Assembly (NCBI GenBank): GCA_030615745.1
Contig: JAUWYR010000003.1
Coordinates: forward strand, 1 to 64,000
Origin: Candidatus Zixiibacteriota bacterium
Lineage (GTDB): Bacteria > Zixibacteria > MSB-5A5 > SM23-73-2
Direction of reading: 5' to 3'
Length of the DNA stretch: 64,000 nucleotides
The position numbers and the translations under genes are program-made. Numbering within the stretch: the stretch's first letter is position 1; each line of letters opens with the position of its first letter. Shown piece after piece: positions 3,295-61,283 of the stretch. The notes under the pieces were generated by a model. The model did no database searches and was not told where the DNA came from. It saw only the letters and a list, made by a program, of their open reading frames with translations.

Positions 3295-3310
3295 AACCAT
3301 CCTGCTCTTA

Positions 3311-3363
3311 GACGGATGTTATCATCCGTCTTCCTATCCTGCTGGATGATAACATCCAGCAGG
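3311..3363. repeat. two adjacent perfect hairpins sharing core GGATGATAACATCC
   Basis: gacggatg-ttat-catccgtc (3311-3330) and cctgctggatg-ataa-catccagcagg (3338-3363). Confidence 0.9.
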
Positions 3364-3812
3364 AGCATAGGTTTTTATAGTTGTTTTTTGAAGGTTAAAG
3401 TCCAAAATCAGGCTTTAGCCTTTTTGTTTTACAAACCATTTATTCGATATTTCGTAGCTTGGGCACCTTTGCCCGATTGCTCCCCTAAAAATTACTTGAC
3501 AAGACTCTATAAATGATTATTATTGGTTATATGAATAAAATGGATTTCCCTATGGAGCGGGATACAGGCAATATTTCCAGAGTTAGTTTGGGCAGCGAGT
3601 AACAATGTGGGTTACTAGAAGTAGATCGAGAAAAGTGTTATGTTTCGATATTATCAATAAGAAGCAATGGTAGAAAAGCTGAATAAAGGTGATATGAATA
3701 AATCATATAATAAATATCTAATCAAACGCAAAGAAAATTTTTTAGGTGATAATTTTGCCAGTAAATTTTGATGGTAAAATATATGTCGAGATCATTAACA
3801 TGAGGATCAAAA

Positions 3813-13787: not shown

Positions 13788-13820
13788 CGCAACCTGCCTG
13801 CCCGGCCAGGGAAGGTTGCG
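13788..13820. repeat. nested palindrome cgcaacct-[gcctgcccggccaggg]-aggttgcg
   Basis: Outer 8-bp arms flank inner palindromic GCCTGCCCGGCCAGGG-like motif. Confidence 0.8.
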
Positions 13821-33933: not shown

Positions 33934-34245
33934 ATGAAAGGTAGTAAATTGTATGTTGGAAATTTAAGTTACTCCATTGGAGAAAATGACTTAAGGGATG
34001 CATTTTCCGAGTTTGGAAATGTAACCTCTGTTAATATTCTCACTGGGAGAGGATTCGCCTTTGTTGAGATGGAGACTCCAGAAGCAGCCCAAAATGCAAT
34101 GGAGGCTTTGGATGGGAAGGAGTTAGATGGTCGTAAACTAAGGGTGGATGAGGCAAAACCGCAACAAAAGCAGAAAAGAGGAGGCTTTAGTAAAGGCGGA
34201 GATAGAAAGGATTTTGGAAAAGGAAAAAGACGACCCAGGTGGTAA
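33934..34245 (+). CDS. RRM-domain RNA-binding protein
   Basis: KLYVGNLSYSIGENDLRDAFSEFG...GRGFAFVEM; basic Gly-rich tail. Confidence 0.95.
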   Translation: MKGSKLYVGNLSYSIGENDLRDAFSEFGNVTSVNILTGRGFAFVEMETPEAAQNAMEALDGKELDGRKLRVDEAKPQQKQKRGGFSKGGDRKDFGKGKRRPRW

Positions 34246-34336
34246 AGATTCTATAAATTTCCAACATTAGCTAAAAGCTTCAAAAGATCTGTTTGATCTT
34301 ATTGTAACGAAATTAAAGAAAGGAATTTCTGAGAGA

Positions 34337-34360
34337 GCAGGGCAGGTTGCCCTGCTTTTC
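34337..34360 (+). terminator. possible Rho-independent terminator after RRM gene
   Basis: gcagggca-ggt-tgccctgc followed by TTTTC. Confidence 0.6.
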
Positions 34361-34400
34361 TGTTTATCAGGAACCGAAAATAGGTCTCTAATTTTTTGTT

Positions 34401-35051
34401 CTGTCAGGAGCTACTCCTGACAGGGGGTGTCAGGTCTGAGGACCTGACACAACATAAAGGGAGGGGATAAACCCCTCCCCTACGGGTGGTCAGTGAAAAG
34501 AGGCTGGAGATTTGAGAAAGAGAAAAAAGTTCAGTAGACAGTAGTCAGTATACAGTGAACAGTAGACAGAAAACGGGAAACAGAAAAAAAAACCTTAATA
34601 TAGTGGCGTCAGGAGTTTCCTCCTGATGCTTTTTCTGTCGGGAGGTAACTTTTGACAGCACTTTGTAAGGAGTGCGATCCCGCCTTTGGCGGGACGCATG
34701 CAATCCATATGGATTGCACTCCATAAAAGGTCAAGGGTGCCCTCACCCTTGACTAACGAGTGTAGCGTCTATGTTAGTGCGGGAATTGGATTTCCCGCAC
34801 GGGGGTAAGGTTGGGGAATTCCAATTCCCCAACCAACAAAAAACGTCTGGGATAAACCCAGACGCTACGACTGATCTGGTGGCACAGAATCCTGACGGGT
34901 CAGCCTGCCCGGCCAGGGGGGACCCGGCAGGCACGTAATTTGTCAAGTTGCATCGGGGTACCTTACCCCGATGCAAAAGAATAGGAACAGGTTTTCAAAC
35001 CTGTCCTGGACCCTTAATTTGAGGATTTTGAAAGTAAAGCTGAAGCTTTAC
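34401..35051. repeat. array of at least 12 distinct hairpins, several nested
   Basis: e.g. ctgtcaggag-cta-ctcctgacag; gtgtcaggtc-tgag-gacctgacac; gcaatccatatggattgc; ggttggggaatt-cc-aattccccaacc; gcatcggggta-cct-taccccgatgc. Confidence 0.92.
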
Positions 35052-35139
35052 ACTCCAGAAGAAAATTACATCAAATTTTTTTTGGAGGTTAGATCAATAA
35101 TACTTCCCGGTATTATTTTGAAAAATCTGCAAAAATCAA

Positions 35140-35193: not shown

Positions 35194-35700
35194 ATGCTTA
35201 GCAGAGCTGTCTTGGTTTTGAATCAAAATTATGAGCCCTTATCTGTATGTACAGTTAAAAGGGCTGTGGTTATGCTTTTTTTGGGCAAGGTGGAGCTGGT
35301 GGAAAAATACGATGGTTATAGGCTTCATTCGGTCACTTTGGTTGTGCCAGTTCCGAGCGTGGTGAGATTGGGATTTTATGTAAAGTTTCCTCAAAAAAAG
35401 ATACTTTTAACAAGGAAAAATATTGTCAAACGGGATAGACATACCTGCCAGTATTGCGGAGAAAGCCATACCCAGATGACGGTTGACCATGTTATTCCCA
35501 AAATCTATGGAGGAACAGATTCCTGGGAGAATTTAGTCTGCGCCTGCATTGAATGTAATAACATCAAGGGAAATCGAACCCCGGAGCAAGCTGGATTGAA
35601 ACTATTGAGAAAACCTAAAAAACCCAATCATATCACCTTCATCCGTCAGTTCGTTGGAATAGTGGATGATAAATGGAGGCGGTATCTATTTTTAGATTAA
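35194..35700 (+). CDS. HNH endonuclease family protein
   Basis: CQYCGESHTQMTVDHVIPKIYGGTDSWENLVCACIECNNIKGNRTP. Confidence 0.93.
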   Translation: MLSRAVLVLNQNYEPLSVCTVKRAVVMLFLGKVELVEKYDGYRLHSVTLVVPVPSVVRLGFYVKFPQKKILLTRKNIVKRDRHTCQYCGESHTQMTVDHVIPKIYGGTDSWENLVCACIECNNIKGNRTPEQAGLKLLRKPKKPNHITFIRQFVGIVDDKWRRYLFLD

Positions 35701-40594: not shown

Positions 40595-42625
40595 ATGCCA
40601 GAGAAGAAAAAAGAAAAAAAAGTAAGAACAGAAGGAGGTGAGAAGAAAAGAAGGGCTTCTGGTAGCTCCCGAGTTAAAAGAAAAGAACAGACCCCAAAAA
40701 AAGTAGCTTCACCAAAGAAGAAAACAGAAAAACCCACAGAAACAAGAAAGGCTGAACCAAAAAAAGAGCCTAAAAAGACTTTTGTGCCTGTTCCTAAGAT
40801 GAGTTTAGCTGAACTCGAACAGAAAGAATATACCCAAGAGGAGTATCAACAACTTCTCCAGATGTATGAGAAGACCATGCCTAAGATGAAGGAAGGAGAG
40901 CTGGTTAAAGGGAAGGTGATGGGGATAACCAAAGAAGATGTGGTTATTGATGTTGGCTTCAAATCAGAGGGAATAATACCGATCTATCAGTTTCCAGAAC
41001 CTCTCAACATCAAAGTAGGTGATGAGATCGATGTTTATCTTGAGGCGATCGAGGATCAGAATGGTCAATTGGTTTTGTCCAAACAGAAGGCAGATTTTAT
41101 GATGGTCTGGGATAAGATCAAGGATGCTTATGGGAAGGAAGCTTTAGTGGAGGGGCTTTTGGAGAAAAGGATTAAAGGAGGGATGGTGGTTAATTTGATG
41201 GGCGTGGATGCTTTTCTACCCGGTTCGCAGATCGCTTTGCGCCAGGTTCCTGATTTTAATGCTTTAGTTGGGAAGAAGATGATGCTGAAGATAATCAAGC
41301 TGAACAAACCCAGAAGAAATATCGTTGTCTCAAGAAGGGTTGTTTTGGAGGAGGAAAGGGAAGCTCAAAGAGCTAAACTTTTAACTGAGATAAAGCCTGG
41401 TCAAGTAAAAGAGGGAATTGTGAAAAACATTACTGATTTTGGAGTGTTCATTGATTTGGGTGGTGTGGATGGTCTTTTGCATATCACCGATATGTCTTGG
41501 GGAAGGATCTCCCATCCCTCGGAGATGGTTGCGCTCGGCGATGAGATAAAGGTGAAGATTCTGGATTTCGACAAAAATGTTGGCAGAGTCTCCTTAGGAC
41601 TAAAACAACTGACCCCTTATCCTTGGGAGAACGTTGAACTGAGATATCCGATTGGTAAGAAGGTCAGGGGAAAAGTTGTTTCCATAACTGATTACGGTGC
41701 TTTTGTGGAGCTGGAAAAAGGGATTGAGGGTTTGATCCATATATCTGAGATGTCCTGGACAAAACATATCAGACATCCATCTAAGGTGGTCGCTATCGGG
41801 GATATGGTGGATGCAGTCGTTTTATCGGTGGACAAACAGAACGAGAAGATATCTTTGGGTTTAAAGCAGATCGAGCCTGACCCCTGGGAGAACATCGAGA
41901 AAAAATATCCTTTGGGCTCAAAAATTATTGGAAAGGTGAGGAACATCACCGCCTTCGGGGTCTTTGTCGAATTAGAGGAAGGAATAGATGGATTGATTCA
42001 TATCTCAGATCTTTCTTGGACCAAAAGGATTCAGCACCCGGCGGAGGTGGTTAGAAGGGGAGATAAAATTGAGGCAGCTGTTCTTAATATCGATAAGGAG
42101 AATCGTAGAATATCTTTAGGTCATAAACAGGTTAAATCGGATCCCTGGCCCTATTATTCTAAAAAATATGCTGAAAGTCGCGAGGTTACTGGACAGATCA
42201 CAAAGCTTTCAGATAGGGGTGTGGTAGTTAAATTGGAGGATGATCTGGAGGGATTTGTCCTGACTAACCAGTTGGGCAAAGAGGATATAACCAAACCAAT
42301 TGAAGCTTTCTCAGAAGGAGATGTGCTTCCTATGAGGGTTATAGATTTTGACCGAATAGGAAAAAGGATTGTCCTCTCTGTTACTGAGTATTATAAGGGG
42401 AGGGAAAAGGCTGAGCTGGAGGCGTTCTTAGCTAAACATCCGACCAGAACTCTGAAAGTGGAGGAGGTGGTGGAGGAAGTTCCTAAAATAGATTTCGAGA
42501 AAAAAGAAAAAGAGACTCAACCTGAAACAAAGCCGGAAAAAGAAGAGAAAACAAAACCACCTACAGCTGAAGGGAAAAAACCCGAAGCTAAACCACCTGA
42601 AGAACCTGATAAGAAAGCTGAGTAA
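40595..42625 (+). CDS. rpsA: 30S ribosomal protein S1 with charged N- and C-terminal extensions
   Basis: Multiple S1 repeats (GVFIDLGGVDGLLHITDMSW, GAFVELEKGIEGLIHISEMSW, GVFVELEEGIDGLIHISDLSW). Confidence 0.95.
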   Translation: MPEKKKEKKVRTEGGEKKRRASGSSRVKRKEQTPKKVASPKKKTEKPTETRKAEPKKEPKKTFVPVPKMSLAELEQKEYTQEEYQQLLQMYEKTMPKMKEGELVKGKVMGITKEDVVIDVGFKSEGIIPIYQFPEPLNIKVGDEIDVYLEAIEDQNGQLVLSKQKADFMMVWDKIKDAYGKEALVEGLLEKRIKGGMVVNLMGVDAFLPGSQIALRQVPDFNALVGKKMMLKIIKLNKPRRNIVVSRRVVLEEEREAQRAKLLTEIKPGQVKEGIVKNITDFGVFIDLGGVDGLLHITDMSWGRISHPSEMVALGDEIKVKILDFDKNVGRVSLGLKQLTPYPWENVELRYPIGKKVRGKVVSITDYGAFVELEKGIEGLIHISEMSWTKHIRHPSKVVAIGDMVDAVVLSVDKQNEKISLGLKQIEPDPWENIEKKYPLGSKIIGKVRNITAFGVFVELEEGIDGLIHISDLSWTKRIQHPAEVVRRGDKIEAAVLNIDKENRRISLGHKQVKSDPWPYYSKKYAESREVTGQITKLSDRGVVVKLEDDLEGFVLTNQLGKEDITKPIEAFSEGDVLPMRVIDFDRIGKRIVLSVTEYYKGREKAELEAFLAKHPTRTLKVEEVVEEVPKIDFEKKEKETQPETKPEKEEKTKPPTAEGKKPEAKPPEEPDKKAE

Positions 42626-50159: not shown

Positions 50160-50345
50160 TAAGTTCGAAGTTTTTCTGTTAGGTCAAAGTCCCCTTACTC
50201 TGACCTTCCTTTTGACTTTCGGGGTAGGGTACCCCGAAAGAACAGGATTTTTTCTTCCTTTATTTATAATAAAAAATCTGGGTTTAAAGTCAAGTATTAT
50301 TTAGTTTCTAAAGAAAACAAAATAGATTTTTTCCTACAGCACTAT

Positions 50346-53784: not shown

Positions 53785-53827
53785 AAATACTAACTCTATT
53801 TGCTTCGGGAATTCCTATTCCCGAAGC
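53785..53827. repeat. left-end motif of the 62-bp repeat followed by a different hairpin
   Basis: aaatactaactctatttg + gcttcgggaat-tcct-attcccgaagc. Confidence 0.75.
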
Positions 53828-60716: not shown

Positions 60717-60774
60717 GTTGGGGTAGGGGTTGAACCCCTACCCCAACAAACAGAGAGAATCTGTGCTTACAAAA
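60717..60774. repeat. hairpin gttggggtaggggtt/aacccctaccccaac plus right flank GAATCTGTGCTTACAAAA
   Basis: 15-bp arms with 1-nt centre as written. Confidence 0.92.
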
Positions 60775-61234: not shown

Positions 61235-61283
61235 TTTTGTAGGCACAGATTCCCGTTGGGGCAGGGGTTAACCCTGCCCCAAC
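61235..61283. repeat. left flank TTTTGTAGGCACAGATTC plus hairpin gttggggcaggg-gttaa-ccctgccccaac
   Basis: Direct reading. Confidence 0.92.

Follow-up and report, generated by a model that had tools for sequence, protein, structure and literature searches.

Between two genes of a Zixibacteria genome lies a run of perfect hairpins, some of them apparently nested in others. What are these hairpins, and how did they come to lie inside one another? The sequence belongs to a Zixibacteria MAG of 74 contigs, each species being represented by one assembly, and we refer to the whole stretch of 64,000 nucleotides that was analysed as the window. At 34336-35051 we counted 12 perfect Watson-Crick stems that do not overlap, each 8 bp or longer and with a loop of length 2-6, whereas 300 dinucleotide-preserving shuffles contained 0.12 stems on average (sd 0.36). 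The dense run of perfect hairpins that the first-pass annotation had reported for 34337-35051 is thus borne out, and the shuffle control that it had proposed came nowhere near this density (maximum 3 stems). Imperfect stems are present as well (34606-34629, 34635-34658, 34669-34698 and 34891-34931). The rest of the genome was sampled in stretches summing to 935 kb (41%). Within a 684-kb sample, the array has the highest hairpin density per 715 bp, and two further 715-bp stretches (L159 and L155) hold 9 hairpins each; as the sampled stretches were partly picked around hits, such densities are not unbiased genome averages.

The array is very probably a REP/BIME cluster with members of at least seven families, most of them RAYT-linked, and one hairpin carries a repeatedly inserted 15-bp unit, here called X, in its loop. 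The 0.8-kb stretch runs from the terminator of an RRM gene to the conserved HNH-gene promoter. Its features, named according to this reading, are:

33934..34245, + strand: gene of an RRM-domain RNA-binding protein, the upstream neighbour (PF00076, E 1e-21)
34333..34364, + strand: intrinsic terminator of the RRM gene, 9-bp GC-rich stem and TTTTCTGTTT
34398..34453, unstranded: REP dimer with a GTT tag at both outer ends, CTGTCAGGAGCTACTCCTGACAG + GTGTCAGGTCTGAGGACCTGACAC
34459..34483, - strand: GTAG-tagged REP, loop TTTAT, GGGAGGGGATAAACCCCTCCC+CTAC, with dispersed copies
34532..34583, + strand: tandem repeat inside the array, heptamer CAGTAGA, about 5 units
34603..34661, unstranded: degenerate REP dimer with outer GTG tags, GCGTCAGGAGTTTCCTCCTGATGC; CTGTCGGGAGGTAACTTTTGACAG (family F)
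34669..34722, unstranded: GGAG-tagged head-to-head REP dimer, with a 95%-identical copy elsewhere in the genome
34730..34757, - strand: REP with core GGGTGCCCTCACCC and tag GTTA (family E)
34762..34770, + strand: left-partner remnant GTAGCGTCT of a GTAG dimer, intact dimer at L151:10802
34773..34837, unstranded: REP dimer with core GGGAATTSSAATTCCC and outer tag GTT(A/G), inside the GTAG dimer
34844..34868, - strand: GTAG-tagged REP, CGTCTGGGATAAACCCAGACG+CTAC, core in 4 other dispersed sample copies
34891..34934, - strand: GTG-tagged REP, GTG-CCTGCCG-GGTCC..GACC-CGTCAGG, loop interrupted by X
34904..34918, + strand: mobile unit X, 15 bp (CCTGCCCGGCCAGGG), within the loop of the preceding REP
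34947..34976, + strand: REP with core GGGTACCTTACCC and tag GTT (family D), related core beside RAYT L054
34985..35006, unstranded: REP-like hairpin ACAGGTTTTCAAACCTGT, related GTAG-tagged copies at L166:846
35034..35056, - strand: GGAG-tagged REP, GTAAAGCTGAAGCTTTAC-A-CTCC, related GGAG REPs flank RAYT L241
35140..35167, + strand: HNH-gene promoter, right limit of the array and conserved in the sister species
35194..35700, + strand: HNH endonuclease gene (PF01844/PF14279)

The first hairpin (34336-34356) had been taken as a member of the array; it belongs instead to the upstream RRM gene, as its intrinsic terminator. The statement that the array is not a tandem repeat holds for the array overall and fails for 34532-34583, where a 7-bp unit is repeated in tandem. 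It is also correct that this is no CRISPR array, as identical direct repeats with regular spacers are not found. An Rfam search of the 64-kb window matched only a tRNA. In the sister species (MAG SM23_73_2), the orthologous gene encodes an HNH protein with 86% identity and has no array upstream; the array is thus lineage-specific. Insertions in the gap between a terminator and a promoter probably cost little.

When comparing the array to its own genome with BLASTN, we obtained 70 matches, each spanning one to three hairpins. The 684-kb sample holds 355 stems of at least 8 bp, and 267 of these are intergenic, though 85% of the sequence is coding. As in REP/BIMEs, the copies are dispersed and mostly intergenic, and they form inverted pairs and clusters. 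The idea that the locus is a nursery of hairpins was not upheld: the array consists of copies of families that are dispersed across the genome and the order. Other dispersed REP-type hairpins, single or paired, lie in the window at 3310-3364, 50216-50240, 53802-53827, 60717-60747 and 61255-61283.

The array contains REPs of at least seven families in both orientations. We sorted the stems of the 684-kb sample into families by their tips. The loop and the 4-5 loop-proximal pairs are fixed in each family; the basal arms vary yet pair. The recurrent loops 'ataaa' and 'cttgt' of the first-pass annotation correspond to the invariant tips of REPs of the GTAG type. An unpaired tag (GTAG, GGAG, GTG or GTT) marks each family. 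A palindrome of 20-40 bp that ends on one side in a conserved unpaired tetranucleotide, GTAG or similar, is what characterizes REP/BIMEs, and the GTAG members agree exactly, whereas GGAG, GTG and GTT tags at a fixed position depart from the GTAG/GTGG definition of REPs. In the best-measured family (GTG - 7 bp - GGTC CCCT GACC), the 20 own copies differ so much that 17 distinct 5' arms occur. The arms are 88% paired compared to 49% (maximum 63%) after re-dealing the right arms, and the GTG tag is found at a fixed distance in 85% of the copies. Arm intermediates with one or two mismatches exist, thus drift with compensation suffices to explain the variety of arms; self-correction of the hairpins may help to keep the arms paired. 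The core of this family has a patchy distribution among genomes, with 32 copies in its own genome, a single one in the sister species and 14 to 75 in relatives from family f2 of the order.

A search for RAYTs, as had been suggested, found three in the genome (L050, L058 and L066), all flanked by hairpins. Their scores for NF047646 (REP_Tyr_transpos) are 145, 103 and 129 bits, above the curated cut-off of 80 bits, and PF01797 (Y1_Tnp) also matches them; a scan with PF01797 detected no other Y1 HUH enzymes. By hairpin scan, L050 sits between GTAG-GTCAGGAGC..GCTCCTGAC and its inverse copy, and L058 between dimers of GTTG-GTGCTGGATT..AATCCAGCAC. The CTAC-ending (GTAG-type) hairpins that flank L066 were spotted by eye in the sequence. 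Since only three RAYTs were found in the host, most families of the array have no cognate RAYT there. Relatives within the order have up to ten RAYTs each, nearly all with matching flanking REP pairs, and it is mostly in these related genomes that the palindromes of the array flank a RAYT. The CTGTCAGGAGC/GTGTCAGG family is paired with RAYT L064, GGGAGGGG-CTAC with L252, the GTG-GTCAGGAG family with L065, L239 and L243, the GGGTACC/GGGTGCC cores with L054, the GGGAATT core with L251 and L253, the GTG-GGTCC family with L067 and the GGAG-GTAAAGC type with L241.

These pairings can be followed along the array. The GTT dimer at 34398-34453 recurs at C1:18798 and C1:19763, and the tip of its first hairpin has one mismatch to the REP adjoining L064 in the sister genome G001. 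A REP near-identical to 34459-34483 flanks L252 of G004. The tips of the 34603-34661 dimer are found beside L065, L239, L243 and L400, and the GGAG dimer at 34669-34722 has the same architecture as dimers beside L059, L068 and L248. The core of 34730-34757 recurs beside L054 of G007; for this member (GGGTGCCC) and for GTAG-CGTCTGGG at 34844-34868, the RAYT match is at the level of type and not of the exact tip. The 34773-34837 dimer has a 90% copy at C52:967-1044, and REPs of its kind adjoin L251 (G005) and L253 (G004). The REP at 34891-34934, whose core is the one with 32 own copies, is also present beside L067. For the hairpin at 34985-35006, a RAYT-flanking counterpart was not found among the RAYT loci compared.

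To relate tags to RAYTs, we built a RAYT tree (37 rows); the tag of each RAYT had been read by eye from its flanking hairpins beforehand. The tags GTAG, GGAG, GTG and GTT change 5 times on this tree compared to 16.5 times when shuffled, and 0 of 200 shuffles were as low. Furthermore, the RAYTs with a GGAG tag form one clade (support 100/100). The tag tracks the RAYT clade. RAYTs are Y1 HUH nucleases that would mobilise REPs as folded single strands, recognised by tag and tip. If tag and tip are what RAYTs read, the arms would be free to drift as long as they pair.

Three nested structures had been interpreted as hairpins inserted into hairpins. The first (ggag[..][..]ctcc, 34669-34722) has a simpler explanation, as it is a GGAG head-to-head REP dimer like the one beside L059. 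The second is plausible: on the minus strand of the window, the right partner of a GTAG dimer is shortened to GACGCTAC and a complete GGGAATT-type dimer stands in its place. The intact GTAG dimer at L151:10802 reads GTAGCGTCTGGGTTTATCCCAGACG-9 nt-GTCGGGCATAAAGCCCGACGCTAC. At L158:2049, a GGAG dimer lies between both partners of a GTAG dimer, which together with the window case suggests that dimers land in dimers. The third structure (cgggtc[..]gacccg) was interpreted correctly, being a GTG-type REP with X in its loop, and X does so genome-wide. Thus, two of the nested cases are genuine hairpin-in-hairpin events, with the second graded as plausible.

The exact 15-mer X has 84 copies genome-wide compared to 0 for the backward control, and its 14-mer core, allowing up to 2 mismatches, has 258 near-copies compared to 2 for the reversed control. 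We excised X from 99 distinct sampled copies. In 38% of the copies, an exact 15-nt deletion restored a perfect hairpin across the junction with a stem of 8 bp or more, whereas swapped flanks gave 3.2% and random intergenic deletions 1.3%; among deletions of 11-19 nt, the best length was 15. The base at position -1 is G in 92 of the 99 copies. As X ends in G and follows G, a unit of 15 bp and a unit of 14 bp with a duplicated G yield the same sequence. X is not itself a REP: it is a 14-15-mer with a 4-bp stem, and only the G is constant on its 5' side. We also considered X as a MITE and rejected this, as there is no duplication beyond the ambiguous single G and the 935 kb contain no IS whose ends resemble X.

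The hosts of X are recognisable for 64 of the 99 copies and fall into ten classes, X itself being one of them. The others are (^ marks the position of X):

Host loops: GA (CTG^AAG); CTTG^T; GATG^ATAACATC; TCAG^GGGAC; GTTG^AGGGCAAC; GGTTG^GGATAACC; GGAATTGG^AATT
Host arms: GCGTCAG^GAG; G^AGNN..TTTAT

All eight GTG REP loops with an insert in the own genome hold X, at the identical position (8/8), and the sister species has an X variant in the same GTG REP loop at 1 locus. The tip type of the GGAG REP at 35034-35056 is a target of X elsewhere. Within one host family, some copies may have been inherited with an X-bearing REP and not newly inserted, so that independent insertions would be fewer than copies; judging by the different host types and the sites in genes, there were probably at least about a dozen. 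A second copy in the window (13797-13811) lies inside the hairpin CGCAACCTG-X-AAGGTTGCG. Triple nesting, with X in X in a REP hairpin, is seen at L156:4583-4607, L162:9603 and L170:10946. A different insert, Y (TTGAGCCTGGCGAAATCCC + hairpin), occupies the CTTG^T loop position in REPs of the GTAG type (L160:2895, L155:7904 and window 41740-41784); Y could be a long-tip REP subfamily and not a second insert type.

X also occurs in genes, where it adds 5 residues and contains no stop in any frame. A Mutator-type transposase contains X twice, in frame, and a 70%-identical homologue from G006 is without exactly five residues in both places. Similarly, a metallophosphoesterase contains X in frame, and its orthologues in four relatives are without the five residues; compared to the sister species, this site is an exact 15-nt gap, that is, an orthologous empty site. 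Three X in tandem lie in an N-terminal coding extension at L325:7084-7128, and two in a row are found in G021 (L415, L416). In G033, which belongs to another family of the class, X likewise splits hairpins (GTAGGGGTTTG-X-ATTAATCAAACCCCTAC). About 120 other genomes of the phylum have few copies of X or none, and among 50 genomes of other phyla and deep relatives it is absent from 49, the remaining genome having 2 copies. A search of IMG/VR for viral carriage of X gave no exact match to TTG+X. Judged from these genome sequences, X has evidently been inserted many times, precisely 3' of a G, mostly into loops and arms of REPs and also into X itself and genes; sites that become unpaired on folding of a REP are preferred.

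How might X be placed? IS200/IS605 elements insert on the 3' side of a short guide and leave no duplication. The guide logic of such insertion has been described (PMC6006769, PMC8266576). X would likewise be inserted 3' of a short guide and without target duplication, as in HUH transfer. Because of this similarity, and because the RAYTs are the sole Y1 HUH enzymes detected, we infer, with less certainty than for the REPs, that an HUH-type strand transfer may place X into REP loops that are single-stranded once the hairpins are extruded. The link of X to RAYTs is weak, as X has no clear tag, has a stem of 4 bp and is absent beside RAYTs: no copy within 2 mismatches was found at 63 RAYT loci, including those of the X-bearing G033, G018, G012 and G021. 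We thus only tentatively favour a reading in which an enzyme carries the 15-bp unit X, in single-stranded form, into exposed REP loops and occasionally into genes.

The main rival is that X and the nested hairpins arise by template switching during replication or by recombination between hairpins, with no transposase involved; a stalled polymerase would copy a loop segment from another hairpin. Several X copies indeed join halves of two host families (GCAACCTG-X-ATAACATC, GGGAATTGG-X-ATAACATCC and CACAGGTTG-X-ATTTCCCGC), which is what recombination within X would yield. Chimeric hairpins, in which left and right arms of different REP families are joined at X, are found at L158:16008, L276 and L268, and such chimeric hosts demonstrate that X is also a site of recombination or template switching. 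Quasi-palindrome correction yields near-perfect arms, and the arms here are near-perfect though variable. However, template switching should vary lengths and endpoints; the constant length of X and the G at -1, across at least nine unrelated host types and genes without strong hairpins, count against it, and we regard this origin as rather unlikely. It is less probable still that X is the footprint of an excised IS that targets REP loops, with the ends CCTGCCC and GGCCAGGG fused. Although X is nearly two inverted 7-mers and IS elements inserting into REPs are known (PMC1525189), no X halves separated by an IS were found in 935 kb. In REP hosts, halves that are separated have another X between them, other matches of the footprint search appear to be due to chance, and where X occurs in IS genes, it is internal to the coding sequence and not terminal.

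The remaining rivals concern the array as a whole. The many stems, and 10 terminator-like sites compared to 1.3 in shuffles, would suit a functional RNA or a termination or attenuation region selected between the RRM and HNH genes. Yet the array is missing upstream of the HNH orthologue of the sister species, its elements belong to dispersed families in both orientations, and it begins past the RRM terminator and stops ahead of the conserved promoter; this makes such a function very improbable. An artefact of assembly or library might be suspected in a MAG of 74 contigs, but the array is internal to a 90-kb contig, independently assembled genomes contain the same families and X, and the X copies are mutated and keep reading frames, so that we give this explanation hardly any credence.

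The movement of REPs is still poorly understood. A tag code, together with arms that are free to change but not to unpair, suggests what RAYT enzymes read. With X, occupied and empty sites can be cleanly told apart in hairpin loops, within X and in genes; if it moves enzymatically as proposed, it would be one of the smallest known transposable units, with REP hairpins as its genome-wide landing pads. Furthermore, hairpin-into-hairpin insertion, so far known mainly from organelle DNA, becomes testable in this order of uncultured bacteria.

Among known systems, the array compares best to REP/BIMEs with their RAYTs (TnpA-REP) and to REPtrons (PMC2817692, PMC3733652, PMC6006769, PMC8266576), with which it shares short dispersed intergenic palindromes, an unpaired 5' tag, head-to-head dimers, clusters and flanking HUH Y1 genes. 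Group 3 RAYTs work on perfect palindromes, require the stem to be paired and recognise the loop (PMC8266576), in agreement with the fixed tips and variable arms of the array. In contrast to known REPs, the array has the tags GGAG, GTG and GTT beyond GTAG/GTGG, largely tracking RAYT clades, and many families with wide arm variety coexist with only three RAYTs in one genome. We found no report of REPs or RAYTs in Zixibacteria, nor of a 15-bp unit of the kind of X, in the open-access papers searched. Palindromes nested in palindromes are known from Volvox organelle DNA (PMC2670323), some REP dimers lie inside palindromes (PMC3733652), and mitochondria contain double-hairpin elements and GC clusters (PMC2800124, PMC4478555). 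As in these organelles, small hairpins here lie inside one another and some in genes, and the double-hairpin elements, like X, show no target duplication; the organelle elements measure about 30-80 bp, whereas X has 15 bp, resides on a bacterial chromosome and has exact empty sites and a candidate HUH machinery. Among IS elements, IS1397, IS621 and ISPpu9 target REPs (PMC1525189). They resemble X in their fixed insertion point in a REP hairpin and in the restoration of the host when the insert is removed; unlike them, X is geneless and 15 bp long, and its hosts are of at least nine different types. Rickettsia palindromic elements (RPE) are palindromic mobile DNA of about 100-150 bp that lies in frame in protein genes. 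X shares with RPE the in-frame presence in genes, but does so with a length of only 15 bp.
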